The notes beneath the pieces were generated by a model. It had not been told where the DNA came from and made no database searches. It saw nothing but the letters and a program-made list of their open reading frames with translations. The position numbers and the translations under genes are program-made. Of a DNA stretch of 64,000 bases, positions 9,920 to 23,692 are shown one piece after another. The DNA is from Variovorax boronicumulans NBRC 103145 (lineage in GTDB: Bacteria; Pseudomonadota; Gammaproteobacteria; Burkholderiales; Burkholderiaceae_C): NCBI RefSeq assembly GCF_001591345.1, contig NZ_BCUS01000001.1:62001-126000 (forward strand). Direction: 5' to 3'. How positions within the stretch are numbered: the first letter of the stretch is position 1; each line of letters begins with the position of its first letter.

Positions 9920-11062
9920 ATGGACATGACCGACACCCGCTTCATCGCCAGCCAGTTGACTCCCACCTCGGCCCCGCCCGCGGCCCTCGAGATCGTCGGC
10001 GTTCGCAAGGACTTCGAGACCTTCAGCGCGCTGCGCGACGTGCACCTGCGCGTGAACCCGGGCGAGATGCTGTGCTTTCTCGGCCCCTCGGGCTGCGGCA
10101 AGACCACGCTGCTGCGCATCATCGCGGGCCTGGAGACACAGACCGCCGGGCAGATCCTGCAGAACGGCAAGGACGTCTCGTGGCTATCGCCGGACAAGCG
10201 CGACTACGGCATCGTGTTCCAGTCGTACGCGCTCTTTCCCAACCTGTCGATCGCCGAGAACGTGGGCTACGGCCTCGTCAACAGCCGCGCGAAGCGGGGC
10301 GAGATCAAGTCGCGTGTCGACGAGCTGCTGAAGCTGGTCGGCCTGCCGACCTCGGGCGCCAAGTACCCGAGCCAGCTCTCGGGCGGCCAGCAACAGCGCG
10401 TGGCCCTGGCCCGCGCGCTGGCCACGCGGCCCGGCCTGTTGCTGCTGGACGAGCCGCTGTCGGCGCTCGACGCGCTGGAGCGCATCCGCCTGCGCGGCGA
10501 GATCCGCCGGCTGCAGAAGCAGGTCGGCATCACGACCATCATGGTCACGCACGACCAGGAAGAAGCGCTGTCGATGGCCGACCGCATCGTGGTGATGAAC
10601 CACGGCGTGATCGAGCAGGTCGGCACGCCGATGGAAATCTACGAACAGCCGGCCACGCCCTTCGTGGCCGACTTCGTGGGCAAGGTCAACGTGCTGCGCG
10701 CGATGGCGCTGGGCAACCAGCGCTTCCAGGTCGGCGACATGGAGCTGCAGTGCGACGCCTGCGACGGCGCCTTCGAGCCCGGCGACGCGGTCAACCTGTA
10801 CCTGCGGCCCGAAGACCGCGCGGTGGAGCACCTGCGCGAGGACACGCCGAACCGCCTGCAGGCCAAGGTCACGAAGGTCGAGTTCCTGGGCGGCCTGTGC
10901 ATTGCCGAAGTGACGGCCGACGCGCTGCACGGCCAGACGCTGGGCCTGCACTTCTCGCTGAACCAGCTGCACGACCTGGACATCCGCGAAGGCAACATCA
11001 TCGACATCGCCTTGCGCGCCAACCGCATCCGCGCCTTTGCCGCGCGCACGTCGAAGCCATGA
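9920..11062 (+). CDS. phnT: 2-aminoethylphosphonate ABC transporter, ATP-binding protein
   Basis: A 380-residue ABC ATPase. Walker A is GPSGCGKTT, the signature LSGGQQQRVALARAL, Walker B LLLLDEPLSALD, and the switch His is in MVTHDQEEAL. A C-terminal TOBE-like domain (about residues 290-375, NLYLRPEDRAVEHL onwards) is typical of importers of the spermidine/iron/phosphonate type. ATG 9920 is taken as start; a GTG nine bases upstream is possible. Its stop overlaps the permease start as ATGA, so the two are translationally coupled. It powers uptake of aminoethylphosphonate together with the flanking binding protein and permease. Confidence 0.88.
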   Translation: MDMTDTRFIASQLTPTSAPPAALEIVGVRKDFETFSALRDVHLRVNPGEMLCFLGPSGCGKTTLLRIIAGLETQTAGQILQNGKDVSWLSPDKRDYGIVFQSYALFPNLSIAENVGYGLVNSRAKRGEIKSRVDELLKLVGLPTSGAKYPSQLSGGQQQRVALARALATRPGLLLLDEPLSALDALERIRLRGEIRRLQKQVGITTIMVTHDQEEALSMADRIVVMNHGVIEQVGTPMEIYEQPATPFVADFVGKVNVLRAMALGNQRFQVGDMELQCDACDGAFEPGDAVNLYLRPEDRAVEHLREDTPNRLQAKVTKVEFLGGLCIAEVTADALHGQTLGLHFSLNQLHDLDIREGNIIDIALRANRIRAFAARTSKP

Positions 11063-12783
11063 ACACGCTGGCACACCCCCGCCCGGCATTCACCGCGCGC
11101 CCTGCCCTTCGCTGGAGCCGCGACGAGACCATCGCGCGCGCCATCCTGTTCGTGGTGATGGCGATGCTGTTCGTGTTCCTCATCGCGCCGCTGCTGACCA
11201 TCCTGGCCCACGCGGTGCAGGACAAGAACGGCCGCTTCGTCGGCCTGGCCCACTTCATCACCTACTTCCAGACGCCGAGCCTGCTGCGCGCGGCGTGGAA
11301 TTCGATCTGGGTGTCGGCTGCGGTGGTGATGATCTCGGTGCCCACGGCCTTCGTGTTCGCCTACGCGCTCACGCGCAGCCGCATGCCGGCGCCGCTGAAG
11401 GCGGTGTTCCGGCTCATCGCGCTCATTCCGCTGCTCGCGCCCTCGCTGCTGTCGGCCATTTCGTTCGTGCAGTGGTTCGGCAACCAGGGCGCGCTCAAGT
11501 TCCTGCTGGGCGGCGCCTCGATCTACGGCGCGCCCGGGATCATCCTGGCCGAGGTCTACAACACCTTCCCGCACGCGCTGATGATCCTGGTCACCGCACT
11601 GTCGCTGGCCGACGGCCGGCTGTACGAGGCGGCCACCGCCCTGCGCACACGGCCCCTGCGTCAGTTCATGACGATCACCCTGCCCTCGTGCAAGTACGGC
11701 CTGATCAGCGCGGCCACCGTGGTCTTCACCTACGTGGTGAGCGACTTCGGCGCGCCCAAGGTCATCGGCGGCAACTTCAACGTGCTGTCGGTCGACGTGT
11801 TCAAGCAGGTGGTGGGCCAGCACAACTTCTCCATCGGCGCGGTGGTGGGCATGCTGCTGCTCGTTCCGTCGATCATTTCCTTCGTGATCGACTACGTGGT
11901 GCGGCGCAAGCTGAAGGCGCAGCTCACGGCGCGCTCGGTGCCCTACACGCCCAAGCCCCGCAAGGTGGCCGATGCGCTGCTCACGCTGTTCTGCACCGTG
12001 GTCTGCAGCCTGCTGCTGGCGACCATCGGCATGGCGATCTACACCTCGGCGATCTCGCTGTGGCCCTACGACCTGTCGTTCACGCTCAAGCACTACCACT
12101 TCGTGCTGGTGGAAAGCGACATGGCCGCCGCCTACGGCAACAGCCTGCTCGTGGCCATGGTCACCGCGGTGGCGGGCTCGCTCATCGTGTTCGTGGGCGC
12201 CTACCTGATCGAGAAGACGCGCAACCTGGGCCTCATGCGCAAGGGCATGCACCTGATGGCGGTGCTGTCGATGGCGGTGCCGGGCCTGGTGCTGGGCCTG
12301 GGCTACGTGATGTTCTTCAACCATCCGTCCAACCCGCTGAACTTCCTGTACCAGACGATGGCGATCCTGGTCATCTCGATGGTGGTGCACTACTACACCT
12401 CGAGCCACCTCACGGCGGTGACGGCGCTCAAGCAGATCGACAACGAGTTCGAGGCCGTGTCGGCCTCGCTCAAAGTGCCGTTTTTCAAGACCTTCCTGCG
12501 CGTGACGGTGCCGGTGTGCCTGCCGGCCATCCTGGACATCGGGCGCTACTTCTTCGTGGTGTCGATGGCCAGCCTCTCGTGCGCCATCTTCCTGTACACG
12601 CCGGAGACCATCCTCGCGTCGGTCGCGATCATGCACCTGGACGACGCCGGCGACATCGGCCCGGCCGCCGCGCTGGCCAGCCTGATCGTCGTCACCTCGA
12701 CGCTGGTGTGCATCGCCTACGCGCTGCTCACGCGCGTGCTGCTCGCACGCACGCAGGCCTGGCGCAACCTCGGCCGCGGCTGA
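11059..12783 (+). CDS. phnU: 2-aminoethylphosphonate ABC transporter, double-length permease
   Basis: A 574-residue inner-membrane protein with about 12 predicted helices arranged as two binding-protein-dependent permease halves. An EAA-type loop appears in the first half near EAATALRTRPLRQFMTITLP and in the second near EFEAVSASLKVPFFKTFLRVTVP. In Salmonella-type systems two separate permeases are used; here one polypeptide carries both. The ATG at 11059 overlaps the ATPase stop. The phnW gene follows after 51 bases. A long upstream extension of the reading frame overlaps phnT and is not real coding. Confidence 0.87.
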   Translation: MNTLAHPRPAFTARPALRWSRDETIARAILFVVMAMLFVFLIAPLLTILAHAVQDKNGRFVGLAHFITYFQTPSLLRAAWNSIWVSAAVVMISVPTAFVFAYALTRSRMPAPLKAVFRLIALIPLLAPSLLSAISFVQWFGNQGALKFLLGGASIYGAPGIILAEVYNTFPHALMILVTALSLADGRLYEAATALRTRPLRQFMTITLPSCKYGLISAATVVFTYVVSDFGAPKVIGGNFNVLSVDVFKQVVGQHNFSIGAVVGMLLLVPSIISFVIDYVVRRKLKAQLTARSVPYTPKPRKVADALLTLFCTVVCSLLLATIGMAIYTSAISLWPYDLSFTLKHYHFVLVESDMAAAYGNSLLVAMVTAVAGSLIVFVGAYLIEKTRNLGLMRKGMHLMAVLSMAVPGLVLGLGYVMFFNHPSNPLNFLYQTMAILVISMVVHYYTSSHLTAVTALKQIDNEFEAVSASLKVPFFKTFLRVTVPVCLPAILDIGRYFFVVSMASLSCAIFLYTPETILASVAIMHLDDAGDIGPAAALASLIVVTSTLVCIAYALLTRVLLARTQAWRNLGRG

Positions 12784-12834
12784 ACGAACCCCTTCCCTCT
12801 CGCCCCTCATTTCCTTTCCCTGCCTGGAGACACC

Positions 12835-13965
12835 ATGAGTCAAGCCGCCCACCCCATCCTGCTCACGCCCGGCCCCCTGACCACCTCGGACCGCACCCGC
12901 CAAGCGATGCTGCGCGACTGGGGGTCATGGGACGCCGACTTCAACCAGATCACGGCGCGCATCCGCAAGGAGGTGCTGAACATCGTGCACGGCACGGGCA
13001 CGCACGAATGCGTGCCCCTGCAAGGCAGCGGCACCTTCTCGGTCGAAGCGGCCATCGGCACCATCGTGCCGCGCAACGGCCATGTGCTGGTGCCGAGCAA
13101 CGGCGCCTACTGCCAGCGCCTGGCCAAGATCTGCAAGGTGCTCGGCCGCAAGCTCACCACCATCGACTACACCGAAGAGAAGCAGGTTTCGCCCGCCGAC
13201 GTCGACCGCGCGCTCGCGGCCGACCCGTCCATCACCCACGTCGCCGTGGTGCACTGCGAAACCGGCGCGGGCGTGCTCAATCCGCTGCACGAGATCGCGC
13301 TGGTCGTCGCCAAGCATGGGCGCGGCCTGATCATCGATGCCATGAGCTCCTTCGGCGCGCTGGAGATCGATGCACGCAAGACGCCCTTCGACGCCGTGGT
13401 CGCGGCCTCGGGCAAGTGCCTCGAAGGCGTGCCGGGCATGGGCTTCGTGGTCATCAAGCGCAACACGCTGGAAAAATGCGAAGGCAACTGCCACTCGCTG
13501 AGCATGGACCTGTACGACCAGTGGGTCTACATGGAGAAGACCACGCAGTGGCGCTTCACGCCGCCCACGCACGTGGTGGCCGCGCTCGACACCGCCATCG
13601 CGCAGTACATCGAGGAAGGCGGCCTGCCCGCGCGCGGCGGGCGCTACACGCGCAACTGCAAGGCGCTGGTCGACGGCCTCGCCACGCTGGGCTTCCGGCC
13701 TTTTCTCGACCCGGCCATCCAGGCGCCGATCATCGTCACCTTCCATGCGCCCGACGATGCCAACTACGACTTCAAGACCTTCTATCAAGAGGTGAAGAAG
13801 CGCGGCTACATCCTCTACCCCGGCAAGCTGACGCAGGTCGAGACCTTCCGCGTGGGCTGCATGGGGCACTTCGGCGACGCAGGCATTCCGGGCGCGGTGG
13901 CGGCCATTGCCGACACGCTAAAAGCCATGGGCATCCGGCAGGTGACGGCGGCCGTCGCGGCCTGA
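12835..13965 (+). CDS. phnW: 2-aminoethylphosphonate:pyruvate aminotransferase
   Basis: A 376-residue class V PLP aminotransferase. The PLP lysine is Lys194 in [11 protein letters not shown], the same position as in the well-studied Salmonella PhnW. The N-terminus [19 protein letters not shown] and [17 protein letters not shown] are family landmarks. It converts aminoethylphosphonate and pyruvate to phosphonoacetaldehyde and L-alanine, the first cytoplasmic step. GGAG lies 6 bases before the ATG. No phosphonoacetaldehyde hydrolase (phnX) is beside it; the product must go to PhnY, encoded on the divergent arm. Confidence 0.94.
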
Positions 13966-15491: not shown

Positions 15492-16784
15492 CTACAGCGC
15501 GCAGGTGCGGAAACCGAAGAAACCGTCGTCGCTATCAGGCAACGCAAAGCCACGGCGACGTGGCGAGCGCAGGCGCGCACGCGTCGCGAACGAGGCGCCG
15601 CGCAGCACGCGCGCGCGGCCGAAGGCGGCCACCGGATCGAACTCGCCGCCGGCGCTCCACGGATCGGCCCGGAAGCCCGGCCAGGGCTGCAGCGTGCCCG
15701 CGGTCCACTCGTGCACGTCGGCCCAGCGGAAGCCCCGCCGCGCGGCCGTGTGGGCCGCGATTTCCCATTCGACCTCGGTCGCGATGCGGCGGCCAGCCCA
15801 GCGCGCCCAGGCGTCGGCCTCCCACCAGCTCAGGTGCACGGCGCTGTGGTGCCCGGCCGCGCGCACGGTGACACCGAAACGCTGCTGCAACACCGAGCCG
15901 CCGGTGCCGTTGCGGGCCACGCCGATCTGCTCCACATGGCGCGGCCCGCGCCGGCCTTCGGTCTGCGCGGCGAGCCAGCGCCAGCCGTCGCCGTGCCACA
16001 GCTCCTCGCGGTCGTAGCCGCCGTCGTCGACGAACTCGATGTACTGGTCCCAGGTGACGGGCTGGGCGTCGATCTCGAACTCGGGCACGTCGACGCGGTG
16101 CGCCGCGCCCTCTTGCGCAAACAGGAAGCCGCTGTGCTCGGGCAGGCCAAGCTCCCAGCGCGTGGCCGGCAGCAGCAGCGGCTCGCGCGTGACGGCGGTG
16201 GGCGGCTGCTCGATGTTCAGCGGCAGGCCCAGCGTCTGCGCCAGCACCACGAGCTGTTCGCCGCGCAGGTCTTCATGGAAGAGCGCGAGCCGGTAGAAGT
16301 ACAGGCCGGCATCGGTCTCGGCGGCGTTCTCTAGCAGCTCGAGCGTGCTTTCGAGGGTTTCGAGCAGGTAGGCCTTGGTCTGGCCCAGGCCGGGCAGGTC
16401 GGGCGACCAGCAGCGCTCGGCCGCACCCTGGGCCGGGTTCCACCAGTCGTCGGCGTCGGGGTCGATGGCGGCCAGCCGCGTGGGGCGCACGGGGCAGTCG
16501 ATGCCGAAGGCGCGCTGGGTGTTGCGCCCGATCCACCATTCGGCGAACCAGCCGATGTGGCCGGCCAGCCAGACCGGCGGCAGCACGGCAGGCTGCTGCG
16601 GCACGCGCATGCTTTCGCCCAGCGCCTGTTCGAACAGGGACAGCAGGTGCAGCGTGTGGTTACGGGCGTCGATGAGGGCCAGCGAGAGCAGGTCGCGGCC
16701 GGCGCGGCGCATGTCGGGCGAGTCGATCGACAGGGGCGGGCTCGCCGCACCGAAGGGCGTCGAAGGCGGCGGGCTCGAAGACAT
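15492..16784 (-). CDS. EgtB/SenA-like sulfoxide or selenoneine synthase homologue with altered iron site
   Basis: A 430-residue protein with an N-terminal DinB-like helical bundle (about 30-190) and a C-terminal formylglycine-generating-enzyme fold (about 215-430, ending GFFGFRTCAL). This is the EgtB/SenA layout: non-heme iron enzymes joining a thiol or selenol donor to trimethylhistidine in ergothioneine or selenoneine synthesis. RNHTL near residue 40 resembles the selenoneine branch known from Variovorax. Expected iron ligands are His76 (AGHIGW), His170 (FHED) and a third His four residues later; here that residue is Arg174. No egtD, senB or senC is in the window. It may be a diverged paralogue with a new or lost activity. 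Confidence 0.7.
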   Translation of the reverse strand: MSSSPPPSTPFGAASPPLSIDSPDMRRAGRDLLSLALIDARNHTLHLLSLFEQALGESMRVPQQPAVLPPVWLAGHIGWFAEWWIGRNTQRAFGIDCPVRPTRLAAIDPDADDWWNPAQGAAERCWSPDLPGLGQTKAYLLETLESTLELLENAAETDAGLYFYRLALFHEDLRGEQLVVLAQTLGLPLNIEQPPTAVTREPLLLPATRWELGLPEHSGFLFAQEGAAHRVDVPEFEIDAQPVTWDQYIEFVDDGGYDREELWHGDGWRWLAAQTEGRRGPRHVEQIGVARNGTGGSVLQQRFGVTVRAAGHHSAVHLSWWEADAWARWAGRRIATEVEWEIAAHTAARRGFRWADVHEWTAGTLQPWPGFRADPWSAGGEFDPVAAFGRARVLRGASFATRARLRSPRRRGFALPDSDDGFFGFRTCAL

Positions 16785-16951: not shown

Positions 16952-17491
16952 TTGTCTGTATTCCTCAAATTCGCGGCCGTCATGGACTGGGTCAGCGAAA
17001 AATTCGGCAAATTTGCCGGCTATGCGGTTCTGGCCGCGTCGCTCATCTCGGCCGCCAACGCCTTCGTCCGGTACGGCTTCGACTTCAGCAACAACGCCTT
17101 CCTCGAGATCCAGTGGTATCTGTTCGCCGCCACCGTGATGCTCGGTGCGCCGGTGGTGCTGCGCTACAACGAGCACGTGCGCGTGGACATCCTCTACGGC
17201 AAGCTCAAGGGCCACGGGCCGGTGTATGTCGACCTGTTCGGCCTGACCTTCTTCCTGCTGCCGGTGATGGGCCTCATGACCTACCTCACCTGGCCGTTCT
17301 TCTGGAACACCTGGGTGTCGGGCGAGATGTCGGGCAACATCGGCGGGCTGATCCGCTGGCCCGCCGCGCTGCTGATGCCCGTGGGTTTCTGCACGATGTT
17401 CCTGCAAGGTGTCGCCGAGATCATCAAGCGCATCGCCTACCTGCGCGGACTGATCGAGATGAACACGCACTACGAGAAGCCGGTGCAGTGA
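16952..17491 (+). CDS. dctQ: TRAP transporter small permease (DctQ type)
   Basis: A 179-residue membrane protein with four expected helices, the DctQ size and layout. The start is taken as TTG 16952 because GGAG (16941-16944) lies 7 bases upstream at normal spacing; ATG 16982 is the alternative and lacks such a site. The frame stays open further upstream but that part has no family similarity. It works with the large permease (next gene, 64 bases downstream) in a sodium-driven, binding-protein-dependent importer. The matching binding protein is probably the convergent gene at 19686-20765. Confidence 0.85.
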   Translation: MSVFLKFAAVMDWVSEKFGKFAGYAVLAASLISAANAFVRYGFDFSNNAFLEIQWYLFAATVMLGAPVVLRYNEHVRVDILYGKLKGHGPVYVDLFGLTFFLLPVMGLMTYLTWPFFWNTWVSGEMSGNIGGLIRWPAALLMPVGFCTMFLQGVAEIIKRIAYLRGLIEMNTHYEKPVQ

Positions 17492-17555
17492 TGGCGTTCG
17501 TCGCGCTTCGCCAGACCGCCCCGACCTTTCCCGCACCGCAGGACACGTAGACATC

Positions 17556-19094
17556 ATGCACATGGAAAATTTTGCCCCGATCATGTTCGCGGGGCTCGTG
17601 GTGATCATGCTGATCGGGTTTCCGGTCGCGTTTTCGCTCTCGGCCCTTGGCCTGATCTGCGGCTTCTTCGCCATCGAGATGGGCTGGTTCCCGGCCGGCT
17701 TCATGGCCAACCTGCCGCTCAACGTGTTCGGCATTTTGTCGAACGAGACGCTGCTGGCCATTCCGTTCTTCACGCTCATGGGAGCGGTGTTGGAGAAATG
17801 CGGGCTCGCCGAGGACATGCTCGACTCGATGGGCCAGCTCTTCGGCCCGATCCGCGGCGGCCTGGGCTACTCGGTGATCATCGTGGGCTTCATCCTCGGC
17901 GCCATCACCGGCACGGTGGCCGGCCAGGTGATCGCGATGGCGATGATCTCGCTGCCGGTCATGATGCGCTACGGCTACAACATGCGCTACTCGACCGGCG
18001 TGCTCGCCGCCTCGGGAACCATCACGCAGCTGGTGCCGCCCTCGCTGGTGCTGATCGTCATGGCCGACCAGCTCGGCACCGACGTCGGCCAGATGTACAA
18101 GGGCGCCTGGGGCCCGTCGATCCTGCAGGTGGTGATCTTCGCGATCTACACCTTCCTGGTCTCGCGCATCCGCCCGCACTACGTGCCCGGCCTGCCCGCC
18201 ACGGCGCGCACGCTGCACGGCTGGGCGCTGTGGGGCAAGTGCCTGCGCGGCATCATCCCCTCGGCCATCCTGATCTTCGCGGTGCTCGGTTCGATGGGCG
18301 GCCTGCCCTTCATGGACAAGGCCATCGCCACGCCGACCGAGGCCGGCGCCATGGGCGCGGTGGGCGCGCTGGTGCTGGCGCTCATTCACCGGCGCCTGAA
18401 CTGGGCGCTGATGAAGGACGCGATGGAAGGCACCATGCGCCTCACGGCGATGGTGGTGTTCATCCTGATCGGCTCGCGCGTGTTCTCGCTGGTGTTCCAG
18501 GGCGTGGACGGCGCCAAGTGGATCGAGCACATGCTCTCGGGCCTGCCGGGCGGCCAGATCGGCTTCCTGATCGCGGTCAACATCTTCGTGTTCTTCCTGG
18601 CGTTCTTCCTCGACTTCTTCGAGATCGCCTTCATCATCCTGCCGCTGCTGGGCCCCGTGGCCCACAAGCTGGGCATCGACATGGTGTGGTTCGGCGTGCT
18701 GCTGTGCGTGAACATGCAGACCTCGTTCATGCATCCGCCGTTCGGCTTTGCGCTGTTCTACTTGCGGGGCATCGCCGACACCCTGTTCAAGAACGGGGCG
18801 CTGCCCAAGAAGGTGGAGTCGCGCGACATCTACCTGGGCGCCGTGCCCTGGGTCGTGATGCAGCTGCTGCTGGTGGCCATCGTGATCTTCTTCCCGCAGA
18901 CGGTGACCGTGTTCCTCGAGAAGGAAAAGGTCGTCGATATCGACAAGGTCAACCTCGACATGCCGGTCGACCCGAACGCGCCGCCCGCCACCGACAACGG
19001 CGTGAACATGGAAGACCCGTTCGGCAACCAGAAGACGCCCGAGGAAACGCCGGCGCCGGCGGCCCCGGCGGCGGGCGAAGCTTCCAAGCCGTGA
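17556..19094 (+). CDS. dctM: TRAP transporter large permease (DctM type)
   Basis: A 512-residue membrane protein with about 12-13 helices. GFPVAFSLSALGLI at the N-terminus, GAITGTVAGQVIAMAMISLPVM, and SGTITQLVPPSLVLIVMAD are DctM landmarks. It is longer than most DctM proteins because of a soluble tail of about 55 residues (from KVVDIDKVNLDMP), rich in Pro, Ala, Asp and Glu, with no recognised domain. Its stop codon overlaps a GTG start of the next small membrane-protein gene. It forms the translocation channel of the transporter with DctQ. Confidence 0.9.
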   Translation: MHMENFAPIMFAGLVVIMLIGFPVAFSLSALGLICGFFAIEMGWFPAGFMANLPLNVFGILSNETLLAIPFFTLMGAVLEKCGLAEDMLDSMGQLFGPIRGGLGYSVIIVGFILGAITGTVAGQVIAMAMISLPVMMRYGYNMRYSTGVLAASGTITQLVPPSLVLIVMADQLGTDVGQMYKGAWGPSILQVVIFAIYTFLVSRIRPHYVPGLPATARTLHGWALWGKCLRGIIPSAILIFAVLGSMGGLPFMDKAIATPTEAGAMGAVGALVLALIHRRLNWALMKDAMEGTMRLTAMVVFILIGSRVFSLVFQGVDGAKWIEHMLSGLPGGQIGFLIAVNIFVFFLAFFLDFFEIAFIILPLLGPVAHKLGIDMVWFGVLLCVNMQTSFMHPPFGFALFYLRGIADTLFKNGALPKKVESRDIYLGAVPWVVMQLLLVAIVIFFPQTVTVFLEKEKVVDIDKVNLDMPVDPNAPPATDNGVNMEDPFGNQKTPEETPAPAAPAAGEASKP

Positions 19095-19685: not shown

Positions 19686-20765
19686 TTACAGCTTCTGCTG
19701 TTGCATGAAGCGGTCGAAGGTGCCTTCGGTGTAGCGGAACCAGGCGTTCTGGTCGGCCAGGAACTTGGACCAGTCGCTGTAGATCTTCTTCCACTCGGGG
19801 TTGCTGTTGTTCAGGTCCGAGTAGATCTGCTGGGCCGACTTGAAAGCGGCGTTCATCACGTCCTGCGAGAACGGACGCAGCTTGGTGCCCGAGCCCACGA
19901 GCTGCTTGAGCGCGATCGGGTTCTTGGCGTCGTACTTGGCCGTCATCGTGATGTTGGCGTGCGCGGCAGCCGCTTCGACCACGGCCTTGAAATCGGCCGA
20001 CAGGCTTTCCCATGCCTTGGTGTTGATGTAGAAGTCGAGCTCGGGGCCGCCTTCCCACCAGCCGGGGTAGTAGTAGAACGGGGCGATCTTGTTGAAGCCC
20101 AGCTTCTGGTCGTCGTACGGGCCGACCCATTCCAGGCCGTCCAGCGTGCCCTTTTCGAGCGCGGGGTACAGGTCGGCGCCGGGGATCGATTGCGGGATCA
20201 CGCCGAAGGGCTCGAGCACCTTGCCGGCGAACGGGTTGGTGCGGAACTTCAGGCCCTTCAGGTCGGCGACCGACTTGATTTCCTTGCGGAACCAGCCGCC
20301 CATCTGCGCGCCCGTGTTGCCGCCCGGCAGGTTGATGATGTTGTACTTGGCGTAGAAGGCGCGCATCAGCTTCAGGCCGTTGCCTTCGTACATCCAGGCG
20401 TTCTGCTGGCGGGTGTTCATGCCGAAGGGCACGGCGCAACCCAGGCAGAAGGTCGGGTCCTTGCCGTAGAAGTAGTAAGGTGCCGTGTGCGCCATTTCGA
20501 CCGCGCCGCTCTGGATGCCGTCGACCACGCCGAAAGCGGGCATCAGCTCGCCGCCCGCGTGCACGGAGATCTGGAACTTGCCGCCCGTCATGTCGCTCAC
20601 GCTCTTCGAGAACACCTCGGCGGTGCCGAAGATGGTGTCCAGCGACTTGGGAAAGCTCGATGCGAGACGCCAGCGAACGGTGGCTTGCGCGTGAACCGCG
20701 GGCGCGATGCCGGCAGCCAGAACGCCCGCGATGCCGGCGTTTTTGATGAGGGAACGACGATCCAT
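19686..20765 (-). CDS. TRAP transporter substrate-binding protein, TakP-like
   Basis: A 359-residue periplasmic binding protein. The N-terminus MDRRSLIKNAGIAGVLAAG carries a twin-arginine-type export signal. The body (SSFPKSLDTIFGTAE, TAPYYFYGKDPTFCLG, GGNTGAQMGGWFRKEI, PYYYYPGWWEGG-like block) closely resembles TakP, which binds alpha-keto acids as a dimer. ATG 20765 is chosen because a CGGAG is 8 bases upstream; a GTG three codons earlier overlaps that site. It is convergent with dctQM across a shared terminator, so binding protein and permeases are made from different promoters. Keto-acid binding is inferred from resemblance. Confidence 0.85.
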   Translation of the reverse strand: MDRRSLIKNAGIAGVLAAGIAPAVHAQATVRWRLASSFPKSLDTIFGTAEVFSKSVSDMTGGKFQISVHAGGELMPAFGVVDGIQSGAVEMAHTAPYYFYGKDPTFCLGCAVPFGMNTRQQNAWMYEGNGLKLMRAFYAKYNIINLPGGNTGAQMGGWFRKEIKSVADLKGLKFRTNPFAGKVLEPFGVIPQSIPGADLYPALEKGTLDGLEWVGPYDDQKLGFNKIAPFYYYPGWWEGGPELDFYINTKAWESLSADFKAVVEAAAAHANITMTAKYDAKNPIALKQLVGSGTKLRPFSQDVMNAAFKSAQQIYSDLNNSNPEWKKIYSDWSKFLADQNAWFRYTEGTFDRFMQQQKL

Positions 20766-20895: not shown

Positions 20896-22740
20896 TCAAA
20901 CGAAGCGTTTCTTGATCGCGGCAGTAATGCCGTCGGCATCGAGACCGATCGATGCGAGCAGCTTGGCCGGATCGCCGTGCTCGATGAAGCGGTCGGGCAG
21001 GCCCAGTTGCAGCACCGGCTTCTGCACGCCCGCAGCCTGCAGGGCCTCGACCACCGCACTGCCCGCGCCGCCCATGATGGCACCCTCTTCGAGCGTGACG
21101 AGCGCATCGTGCGTGCCCGCGACCTGCAGCAGCAATTCGACGTCGAGCGGCTTGGCCCAGCGCATGTTGACCACGGTGGCGTCGAGCGACTCGGCCGCGG
21201 TGAGCGCCGGGTACAGCAAGGTGCCGAACGCGAGGATGGCGATGCGCTGGCCTTCGCGGCGGACTTCGCCCTTGCCGAAGGGCAGCGCGTCGAGCGTGAG
21301 GTGCGGCGTGGTGCCGGCGCCCGCGCCGCGCGGGTAGCGCACGGCCACCGGGTGGTTCTGTTCGTAGGCGCTCGTCAGCAGCTGGCGGCACTCGCGCTCG
21401 TCGGCCGGGCAGGCGATGCTCATGTTGGGAATACAGCGCAGGAACGGGATGTCGTACGCGCCCGCGTGCGTGGCGCCGTCGGCGCCCACGAGGCCCGCGC
21501 GGTCGAGCGCGAACACCACGGGCAGGTTCTGGATCGCCACGTCGTGGATCAGCTGGTCGTAGGCGCGCTGCAGGAAGGTCGAGTAGATCGCCACCACGGG
21601 CTTCAGGCCCTCGCAGGCCAGGCCGGCGGCGAACGTGACCGCGTGCTGCTCGGCGATGCCGACGTCGTAGTAGCGGTCAGGGAAGCGCTTTTCGAACTCC
21701 ACGAGCCCCGAGCCTTCGCGCATCGCGGGCGTGATGCCCACGAGGCGGCCGTCGTGCGCGGCCGTGTCGCACAGCCACTGGCCGAAGACCTGCGTGAAGG
21801 TCTGCTTGGCCGCCGTGGTCGACTTGACCAGGCCCACCTGCGGATCGAACTTGCCCGGGCCGTGGTAGGCCACCGGGTCGGCTTCGGCCAGCTTGTAGCC
21901 CTGCCCTTTTTTCGTGACCACGTGCAGGAACTGCGGGCCGTCCAGGTGCTTGAGGTTCTCGAGCGTGGGCACCAGCGAGTCGATGTCGTGGCCGTCGATG
22001 GGGCCGACGTAGTTGAAGCCGAACTGCTCGAACAGCGTGGCCGGCACGACCATGCCCTTGGCATGCTGCTCCAGGCGCTTGGCCAGCTCGAACAGCGGCG
22101 GCGCATTGCGCAGCACGCTCTTGCCGACGCTCTTGGCGGCGGCGTAGAAGTTGCCGCTCATGAGCTGCGCGAGGTAGCGGTTGAGCGCGCCCACCGGCGG
22201 GCTGATCGACATGTCGTTGTCGTTCAGGATGACCAGCAGCTTGCAGTCGCACACGCCCGCGTTGTTGAGCGCCTCGAAGGCCATGCCGGCCGTGAGCGCG
22301 CCGTCGCCGATGATGGCCACGGCATGGCGCTTCTCGCCCTTCTGCTTGGCGGCCATGGCCATGCCGAGCGCGGCCGAGATGCTGGTCGACGAGTGGGCGG
22401 TGCCGAAGGTGTCGTACTCGCTCTCGGTGCGCTGCGGAAAGCCCGAGATGCCGCCGAGCTGGCGCAACGTGGGCATGCGCTCGCGCCGGCCCGTGAGGAT
22501 CTTGTGCGGGTAGGTCTGGTGGCCCACGTCCCACACCAGCCGGTCGTGCGGCGTGTTGAACACATGGTGCAGCGCCACCGTCAGCTCGACCGTGCCGAGG
22601 TTGGAGCTCAGGTGGCCGCCGGTGCGCGAGACGTTGTCAAGCACGCAGGCGCGCACCTCGTCGGACAGCTGCTTGAGCTGGGCCCGGTCGTACTGGCGGA
22701 TCGGCGAAGGGTCGTGGAGAGTGGGAAGCAGCGGAGCCAT
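20896..22740 (-). CDS. dxs: 1-deoxy-D-xylulose-5-phosphate synthase
   Basis: A 614-residue thiamine-diphosphate enzyme of full length. [18 protein letters not shown] is the ThDP/Mg-binding motif; [21 protein letters not shown] belongs to the pyrimidine domain and carries the proton-relay residues; [18 protein letters not shown] is conserved near the N-terminus. It joins pyruvate and glyceraldehyde-3-phosphate to start the MEP isoprenoid pathway. It is the last gene of a leftward xseB-ispA-dxs operon, 22 bases after ispA, an arrangement common in Betaproteobacteria that links precursor and prenyl-chain synthesis. Confidence 0.96.
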
Positions 22741-22762
22741 GGAGGTGGGTTCTTTTTTCTTC

Positions 22763-23692
22763 TCAGCGGTCGCGGTCGACCACCATGTGGGCCAGGGCGC
22801 GCAATGCGGCAGTGTCGGGCAGGCCGCTCTTGTTCAGCGCGGCGATGGCATCGGCGAGCAGCTGGCTCGCCTGCGCGCGCGCGCCGTCCAGGCCGAGCAG
22901 CGACACGTAGGTGGGCTTGTCGGCCGCGGCATCCTTGCCGGCGGTCTTGCCCAGGGTTTGCGAGTCGGCGGTGACGTCGAGGATGTCGTCGACCACCTGG
23001 AACGCCAGGCCGATGGCGGCGCCGTAGTCGCGCAGTGCGGCCAGCGCGGCCGGCGACACGGTGCCGCAGGCGGCGCCCATCTCGACGCTGCCCTGCAGCA
23101 GCGCGCCGGTCTTCAGGCGGTGCATTTCGCGCAGCTGGGTTTCGTTCAGTGCGATGCCGACGCTGGCCAGGTCGATGGCCTGGCCGCCGGCCATGCCCTG
23201 GCTGCCAGCGGCGCGCGCCAGCAGGCGGCACAGCAGGGCCTGCATGGCCGCGGGCACCTCGTCGCCTTCGGGCGCGAGCAGTTCGAAGGCCAGCGCCTGC
23301 AGCGCGTCGCCCGCGAGCAATGCGTCGGCTTCGCCGAACTTCACGTGCACGGTGGGCTTGCCGCGACGCAGCACGTCGTTGTCCATGCACGGCAGGTCGT
23401 CGTGCACCAGCGAATAGGCGTGGATGAGTTCGGTGGCGCAGGCCGCTCGCAGCGCGGCGTGGGCGTTGCCGCCGACCGCTTCATTGGCCGCGAGCACCAG
23501 CAGCGGCCGCAGCCGCTTGCCGCCGTCGAGCACGGCATAGCGCATGGCGTCACCCAGCAGCACCGGCGCATCGACGCCGACCCAGCGCGACAGCGCCGCT
23601 TCGACCGTGGCCAGATGGGGCTCGGCCCAGTTGGCCAGCGTCTTCGCGTCCCAGGGGGTGGTGGCGGTGGAAGTCATCGGGACGGCGCTCAT
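22763..23692 (-). CDS. ispA: Farnesyl (short-chain polyprenyl) diphosphate synthase
   Basis: A 309-residue trans-prenyltransferase. The first Asp-rich motif is DDLPCMDND, after HAYSLVH; the second is DDILD, after [15 protein letters not shown] binds diphosphate. It condenses isopentenyl diphosphate with dimethylallyl/geranyl diphosphate to farnesyl diphosphate, feeding quinones and undecaprenyl carriers. ATG 23692 overlaps the xseB stop as ATGA; a second ATG five codons later is possible. It lies between xseB and dxs in one operon. Confidence 0.94.

Follow-up and report, generated by a model that had tools for sequence, protein, structure and literature searches.

What has become of a SenA-type enzyme whose iron site has lost a histidine? 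This question is raised by a gene on the minus strand of the window, that is, the whole stretch of 64,000 nucleotides under analysis, which encodes at 15492..16784 a SenA-derived protein of 430 amino acids lacking both the third iron ligand and the counterpart of Tyr377 of MthEgtB. The genes of the window were taken from a codon-usage caller for G+C-rich DNA, and the reading frame of this one begins with M1 at position 16784 and contains no internal stops. Pfam searches returned a DinB_2-like domain at residues 47-165 (16290..16646, minus strand), with a score of 21.9 bits, below the cut-off of 24.8, and an FGE-sulfatase-type domain from residue 207 to the C-terminus (15495..16166, minus strand; best Pfam stretch 207-350; PF03781, E 4.3e-24). 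Solved SenA matched far better than FGE, and the closest solved relatives in phmmer searches were the SenA structures 8k5i and 8ryz; the OvsA structures 8ux5 and 8u41 gave E values of 3.5e-35 and 3.4e-34 respectively. The protein scored 359.3 bits with the NCBIfam SenA model (NF041186), under the equivalog cut-off of 420, and 155.8 bits with the EgtB model (TIGR03440), under the cut-off of 360. An AlphaFold model built with 34 near relatives had a mean pLDDT of 48.9 and was unusable.

SenA is presented in the available part of PMC10891094 as an iron-dependent enzyme that joins hercynine and a selenosugar. A preliminary description of the locus had read the iron-binding HxxxH pair of the family as His170-x-x-x-Arg174, and this reading is borne out by the translation, H170-E-D-L-R174-G-E176. 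Sequence alignment identified His76 (codon 16557..16559) and His170 (16275..16277) as the counterparts of MthEgtB His51 and His134, and Arg174 (16263..16265) as the residue that replaces the third ligand, MthEgtB His138, all on the minus strand. The alignment with SenA that had been proposed as a check was carried out with phmmer and placed Arg174 opposite the second His of HEAMH in 8k5i; a substitute His ligand beside it is ruled out, as residue 173 is Leu and residue 175 is Gly.

The same position was then inspected in close homologues. Among 80 loci and the query, residue 174 was Arg in 75 sequences, Cys in 5, Leu in 1 and His in none of the 81, and a sequencing, frame or assembly error at this position was rejected on these counts. 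His170 was conserved in 80 of the 81 sequences and His76 in 74, the others having Tyr (3), Arg (2), Lys (1) or a gap (1). The residue tables used 79 of the 81 close homologues; L115-L118, further Variovorax members, were dropped, and L172 and L173, absent from the first tables, were recovered later. A loss peculiar to the window was likewise rejected, the altered triad being widespread in the homologues and in the wider clade; the change to Arg174 characterizes an entire lineage and is not a one-off. The search for an Arg174-bearing homologue with proven activity found none, and to our knowledge no Arg174 member of the clade has been assayed so far. One of the loci, L002, comes from a record titled Sphingomonadales bacterium and holds an 87% identical gene, probably through bin contamination.

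The preliminary description had considered the rest of the protein intact, which holds for the reading frame and fails for the active site of the FGE domain, where Tyr376, Asn412 and Trp358 are lost. In the phmmer alignment with 4x8b, where MthEgtB Tyr377 is residue 378 of the chain (a shift of one, deduced from His51 being residue 52), this Tyr falls on the first Tyr of PYRDYS. The column is 376 here, and the window protein has Trp in it (codon 15657..15659, minus strand). Since this column holds Leu or Met in 17 Variovorax-type EgtB rows, the equation of column 376 with Tyr377 is drawn solely from MthEgtB. The available part of PMC10903977 reports that the Y377F change in MthEgtB sharply reduced sulfoxide synthase activity. 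By analogy with EgtB, Tyr376 would be catalytic in SenA. Tyr376 occurred in 30 of 30 SenA sequences outside the clade of the window protein. Inside the clade, 12 of the 18 proteins that keep three His have it, and so do none of 138 lost-triad proteins; two further lost-triad members read later, G448 and G483, retain it. We defined the full set as His76, His170, His174 and Tyr376. Ten further positions outside this definition (N412, W358, A177, Y379, S380, N224, D223, F365, F388 and R418) were constant in 58 of 58 full-set rows.

Many of these columns have been released in the 64 rows nearest to the window protein. Trp376 was found in 63 of them, N412 was retained in none, W358 in 7, A177 in 4 and Y379 in 21, and the commonest replacements were Ala at 414 (57 rows), Gln at 177 (53) and Gly at 412 (43). 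His76 and His170 were kept in 56 and 57 rows, more often than the other released columns, and Arg174 in 44, the alternatives at 174 including Cys, Ile, Val and Leu. R87, R165, E171, W360 and R411 were present in 64 of 64.

Inspection of the window genome (6.7 Mb in 287 contigs, rated 100% complete) provided a further line of evidence. A second, canonical SenA copy accompanied by senB, which the preliminary description had suggested looking for, did not turn up: this genome returned no SenA over the cut-off and no senB match. It has its own EgtB, of 523 bits, which adjoins EgtD on contig C64. A third FGE-type protein lies on contig C59 (L125 1489-2466); its nearest family is PvdO, at 146 bits, far under the PvdO cut-off of 500.

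The loss of the third ligand, of the Tyr377 counterpart and of further pocket columns, taken with the missing senB match, makes the loss of selenoneine synthesis very likely, and we hold with high confidence that the window protein is not a selenoneine synthase. The opposite view, that selenoneine or its sulfur analogue is still made despite the changes, can appeal to the preserved family and to the many core residues kept, but it would have to accommodate the loss of Y379 together with that of the third ligand, the Tyr377 counterpart, N412 and W358 in a genome without a senB match, and we regard it as scarcely credible. The interpretation that we prefer, to which we assign a probability of roughly 0.7, is that the window protein is an orphaned SenA that makes no selenoneine and has been kept for another function.

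At genus level, a model of the close homologues matched 100 of 101 genomes with no stops, three of the matches being partial, and the one genome without a match is a 73%-complete assembly. The nearest named locus belongs to Variovorax sp. Root473 (97% identical), and the label Variovorax for the genus group was deduced from such named relatives. SenA over the cut-off and senB were found in an identical subset of 27 of the 101 genomes. Residues were read in 81 sequences and a few others of the genus; since their SenA scores reach at most 374 bits among the matches listed, nearly all of the 100 genus members appear to be altered.

The neighbourhood of the gene was examined by a family scan. The gene calls of the window agree with the earlier statement that the vicinity holds no genes for ergothioneine or selenoneine, the EgtB-EgtD pair being on contig C64, and senC (selD) was not among the scanned neighbours in the window. 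The divergent neighbours are genes for the small and large TRAP permease subunits (16982..19094, plus strand); the large one scores over the cut-off for dctM and the small one, which had no NCBIfam match, was named by position. They are followed by a gene for a dctP-like TRAP solute-binding protein (19686..20765, minus strand; 61.8 bits, below the cut-off of 175) and by dxs and farnesyl diphosphate synthase genes (20896..23677, minus strand). The TRAP small-subunit cluster was present in 67 of 81 loci, the window included, and the dxs cluster in 51 of 81. Across the loci no conserved co-directional partner was seen and the 3' side was variable, so that the surroundings of the gene pointed to no function. 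TRAP neighbours occur beside full-set members too, for example L160 and L162; in L185 the full-set senA adjoins senB and selD with folE2 upstream, and the altered genes of L198 (scanned) and L204 (from clustering) directly follow folE2. One ancestral locus that lost senB and selD would explain these shared TRAP and folE2 neighbours.

Several other genes were noted around these loci. On the far side, genes of ModE-like and tungstate type were named by reading their sequences. The window carries 2-aminoethylphosphonate genes at 9920-13965, where PhnT2 and PhnW exceed their cut-offs; they lie upstream of the MFS gene that adjoins the SenA-derived gene. A protein like carboxylate-amine or glutamate-cysteine ligases, again read from sequence, is encoded near the altered gene in L158 (2793-3905) and L163 (35-913).

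The alignment was matched at E 1e-60 by 175 of 399 genomes of the bacterial family, a part of which was read for residues, and the clade representatives ranged by degrees from proteins with three His to losses of many kinds. The final tree, a quick-search tree of 187 rows built without the triad columns and column 376, held all 141 clade rows together with a support of 100 and no other SenA inside, set apart from EgtB and including 16 full-set members; the window protein thus belongs to the SenA clade by descent. Of the 80 named loci 26 entered the trees, together with 14 out of 20 Variovorax SenA and 4 EgtB, and ten near-duplicate rows were omitted; in the first quick-search tree stars marked 39 of 121 inner branches. 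The 64 nearest rows form a subtree around the window protein with a weak support of 68. On the final tree the triad must have switched between its intact and lost states at least 16 times, and column 376 between Tyr and another residue at least 11 times, counts that cannot separate gain from loss. Twelve lost-triad members in 80 genomes exceeded the NCBIfam SenA cut-off of 420 bits (G191, G301, G196, G491, G304, G146, G311, G231, G352, G170, G275 and G166), so that the NCBIfam model alone can overstate selenoneine synthesis.

The state of the active site was then compared with the genomic context. For 120 genomes, each with one clade member, we noted the state of the triad, the residue at 376, whether senB is present and whether another full-set SenA exists. 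All 16 full-set members were the sole full-set SenA of a genome with senB, and 102 of the 104 remaining members were in genomes that either have no senB or carry another full-set SenA. Among these 104, members with three His and no Tyr376 (n = 20) comprised 11 in genomes without senB, 8 with another full-set SenA and 1 sole copy with senB, and members with a lost triad (n = 84) comprised 48 without senB, two of which retain Tyr, 35 with another SenA and 1 sole copy with senB. Data processing returned a Fisher p value of 5e-18 for 16 of 16 against 2 of 104 sole copies with senB, a figure that ignores kinship. The two rule-breakers, G301 (L192, triad HRL) and G478 (L280, HHH with Trp376), have senB in genomes where no full-set SenA was found, and incomplete assembly or a broken pathway is suggested for both.

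The definition of the full set had been made on the first 80 genomes, where 12 of 12 full-set members and 67 of 68 others obeyed the rule. As the three supported sister pairs of an earlier tree were not enough for a test, 40 genomes were added, chosen before their residues were seen; 4 of 4 full-set members and 35 of 36 others obeyed again, in a sample that is not random, since the additions came mostly from genera of members already read. The final tree contains 114 of the 120 genomes and offers six supported independent sister pairs. Out of 200 pairings, 191 had all six in agreement with the rule; in the other nine, five agreed and one showed no difference (sign test p: median 0.031, at most 0.0625).

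Some particulars of the search are given here. The senB search did not include G106, whose L212 lies outside the clade. The second SenA of G488 is in pieces on two contigs, and those of G304 and G210 lie off the senB contig. The senB matches of G164, G213, G489, G244 and G364 each contain one internal stop and may be decaying or mis-assembled; G244 is a full-set genome. An extra SenA-type match over the cut-off (473.5 bits) was observed at G198:C12:17553-18977, besides the one near senB.

The possibility that the gene is dying, a functionless leftover of a sen cluster, was evaluated from substitution rates (NG86). Six pairs of the Variovorax group gave dN/dS values of 0.17, 0.25, 0.15, 0.15, 0.12 and 0.12, and five further pairs of Arg174 proteins gave 0.07-0.11, as low as the values for EgtB (0.15-0.19, three pairs) and Variovorax SenA (0.23-0.25, four pairs). 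Full-set clade members gave 0.09-0.16 at high dS (four pairs). Eight other altered pairs ranged from 0.15 to 0.37. A dying gene would agree with the released active-site columns, with the missing senB match and with one altered pair of relatives at 0.70, but not with the low dN/dS elsewhere, the stop-free matches throughout the genus, the five residues constant in all 64 nearest rows or the repeated arrival at Trp376, and we judge it highly improbable. At column 376 all 91 Trp codons are TGG and the 60 Tyr codons are TAC or TAT, and of the 17 maximal subtrees that contain no full-set member, 9 have Trp as their most frequent residue there; this repeated arrival by two base changes points to selection, although the count may be inflated by errors in the tree. 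In all probability the window protein is kept by selection. Its sequence combines the loss of catalytic residues with retention of the protein under selection, the pattern of a pseudoenzyme.

The two retained histidines leave room for a metal enzyme of another kind. The preliminary description had proposed altered metal chemistry or a non-catalytic role, and its second half stands as far as selenoneine synthesis is concerned: the third His, the Tyr377 counterpart and other columns are gone, and the loss tracks the absence of senB or the presence of another SenA. Its first half would take the form of a His76/His170 dyad that holds iron or another metal, with Arg174 shaping an open site for a different reaction. 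Such a two-His site may persist, given how often His76 and His170 are retained among the 64 nearest rows, where N412, W358 and A177 have largely gone, and Arg174 itself prevails there. According to the accessible part of PMC13426267, H138 mutants of the evolved MthEgtB variant CHF1 kept some non-native activity and H51 and H134 mutants had none, and W377 is named for the modelled evolved enzyme; the same part reports that H138 mutants of another variant, CHF2, lost nearly all activity without azide. However, 14 of the 64 rows have lost the first or second His as well (patterns HRI, RHC, HRL, NHR, RVT, RHR, KHC, HYC and YHR), residue 174 is not uniformly Arg, and elsewhere in the clade all three triad positions vary. 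An altered metal enzyme therefore appears unlikely to us, if far from negligible.

Since these 14 rows lose a further His and the replacing residues vary, binding of a ligand independently of metal is favoured for the orphaned SenA. We think it probable that the window protein works without iron, and consider the chances even that it binds a ligand rather than catalyzing a new reaction. Once the partnership with SenB was gone, the carbon-selenium chemistry would have been released from constraint and the pocket rebuilt, with Tyr376 becoming Trp, Asn412 Gly, Phe/Tyr414 Ala and Ala177 Gln; the rebuilt pocket would most likely bind another small ligand without a three-His iron.

A ligand could be sought in the ergothioneine pathway, where the protein might act as a partner or regulator of EgtB or bind hercynine or ergothioneine. 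EgtD was matched in 55 of the 70 genomes tested, among them all 12 full-set genomes, and the window genome has both EgtB and EgtD. Against this, 15 genomes with altered members have no EgtD match at E 1e-30; four of 99-100% completeness (G139, G466, G159 and G269) have no EgtD and one SenA/EgtB-type match each at E 1e-50. As the altered protein is kept where hercynine is seemingly not made, a role tied to hercynine or EgtB is disfavoured, uptake apart, and we hold it to be distinctly improbable. The odds given to these alternatives overlap with that of the orphaned SenA and do not sum to 1.

A broader and more tentative proposal, which we rate at somewhat less than even, is that one SenA clade already possessed a second function, independent of iron, when the losses began, and that its chemistry was shed again and again within one bacterial family, depending on the partner, to turn a metalloenzyme into a binding protein. 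Where senB is missing or another SenA takes over, Tyr376 would often change to Trp, the iron ligands would be lost afterwards and the second function would remain. The presence of senB and of a second SenA predicts the integrity of the active site, thus offering a natural experiment on how a function can outlast the chemistry of an enzyme. If the remnant's function is found, it may bring to light a role of SenA that has been overlooked.

Among the literature matches listed, no inactive SenA or EgtB and no SenA-derived pseudoenzyme was found, a result that falls short of proof of absence as subscription papers were mostly outside the search. With SenA (NF041186; 8k5i, 8ryz) the window protein shares an alignment over residues 32-429, a common clade, His76 and His170, but it scores under the cut-off, has lost the third His, Tyr376, N412, W358 and Y379 and has no sen genes beside it. 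With EgtB (TIGR03440; 4x8b) it shares the superfamily and the positions of the His ligands, whereas it reaches 156 bits against a cut-off of 360 in a genome that has its own EgtB. OvsA, a selenoxide synthase (8ux5, 8u41), aligns with the protein but is more distant than SenA and shows H-x-x-x-H. In the evolved MthEgtB variants, as described in the accessible part of PMC13426267, the same ligand position, His138, was changed and W377 is named for the modelled enzyme, but these are laboratory variants acting on non-native substrates, with His138 replaced by Asp, Glu or Ala and not by Arg. Pseudoenzymes are a known kind of protein; the unusual part here is the close link between the partner gene, the second copy and the state of the active site.
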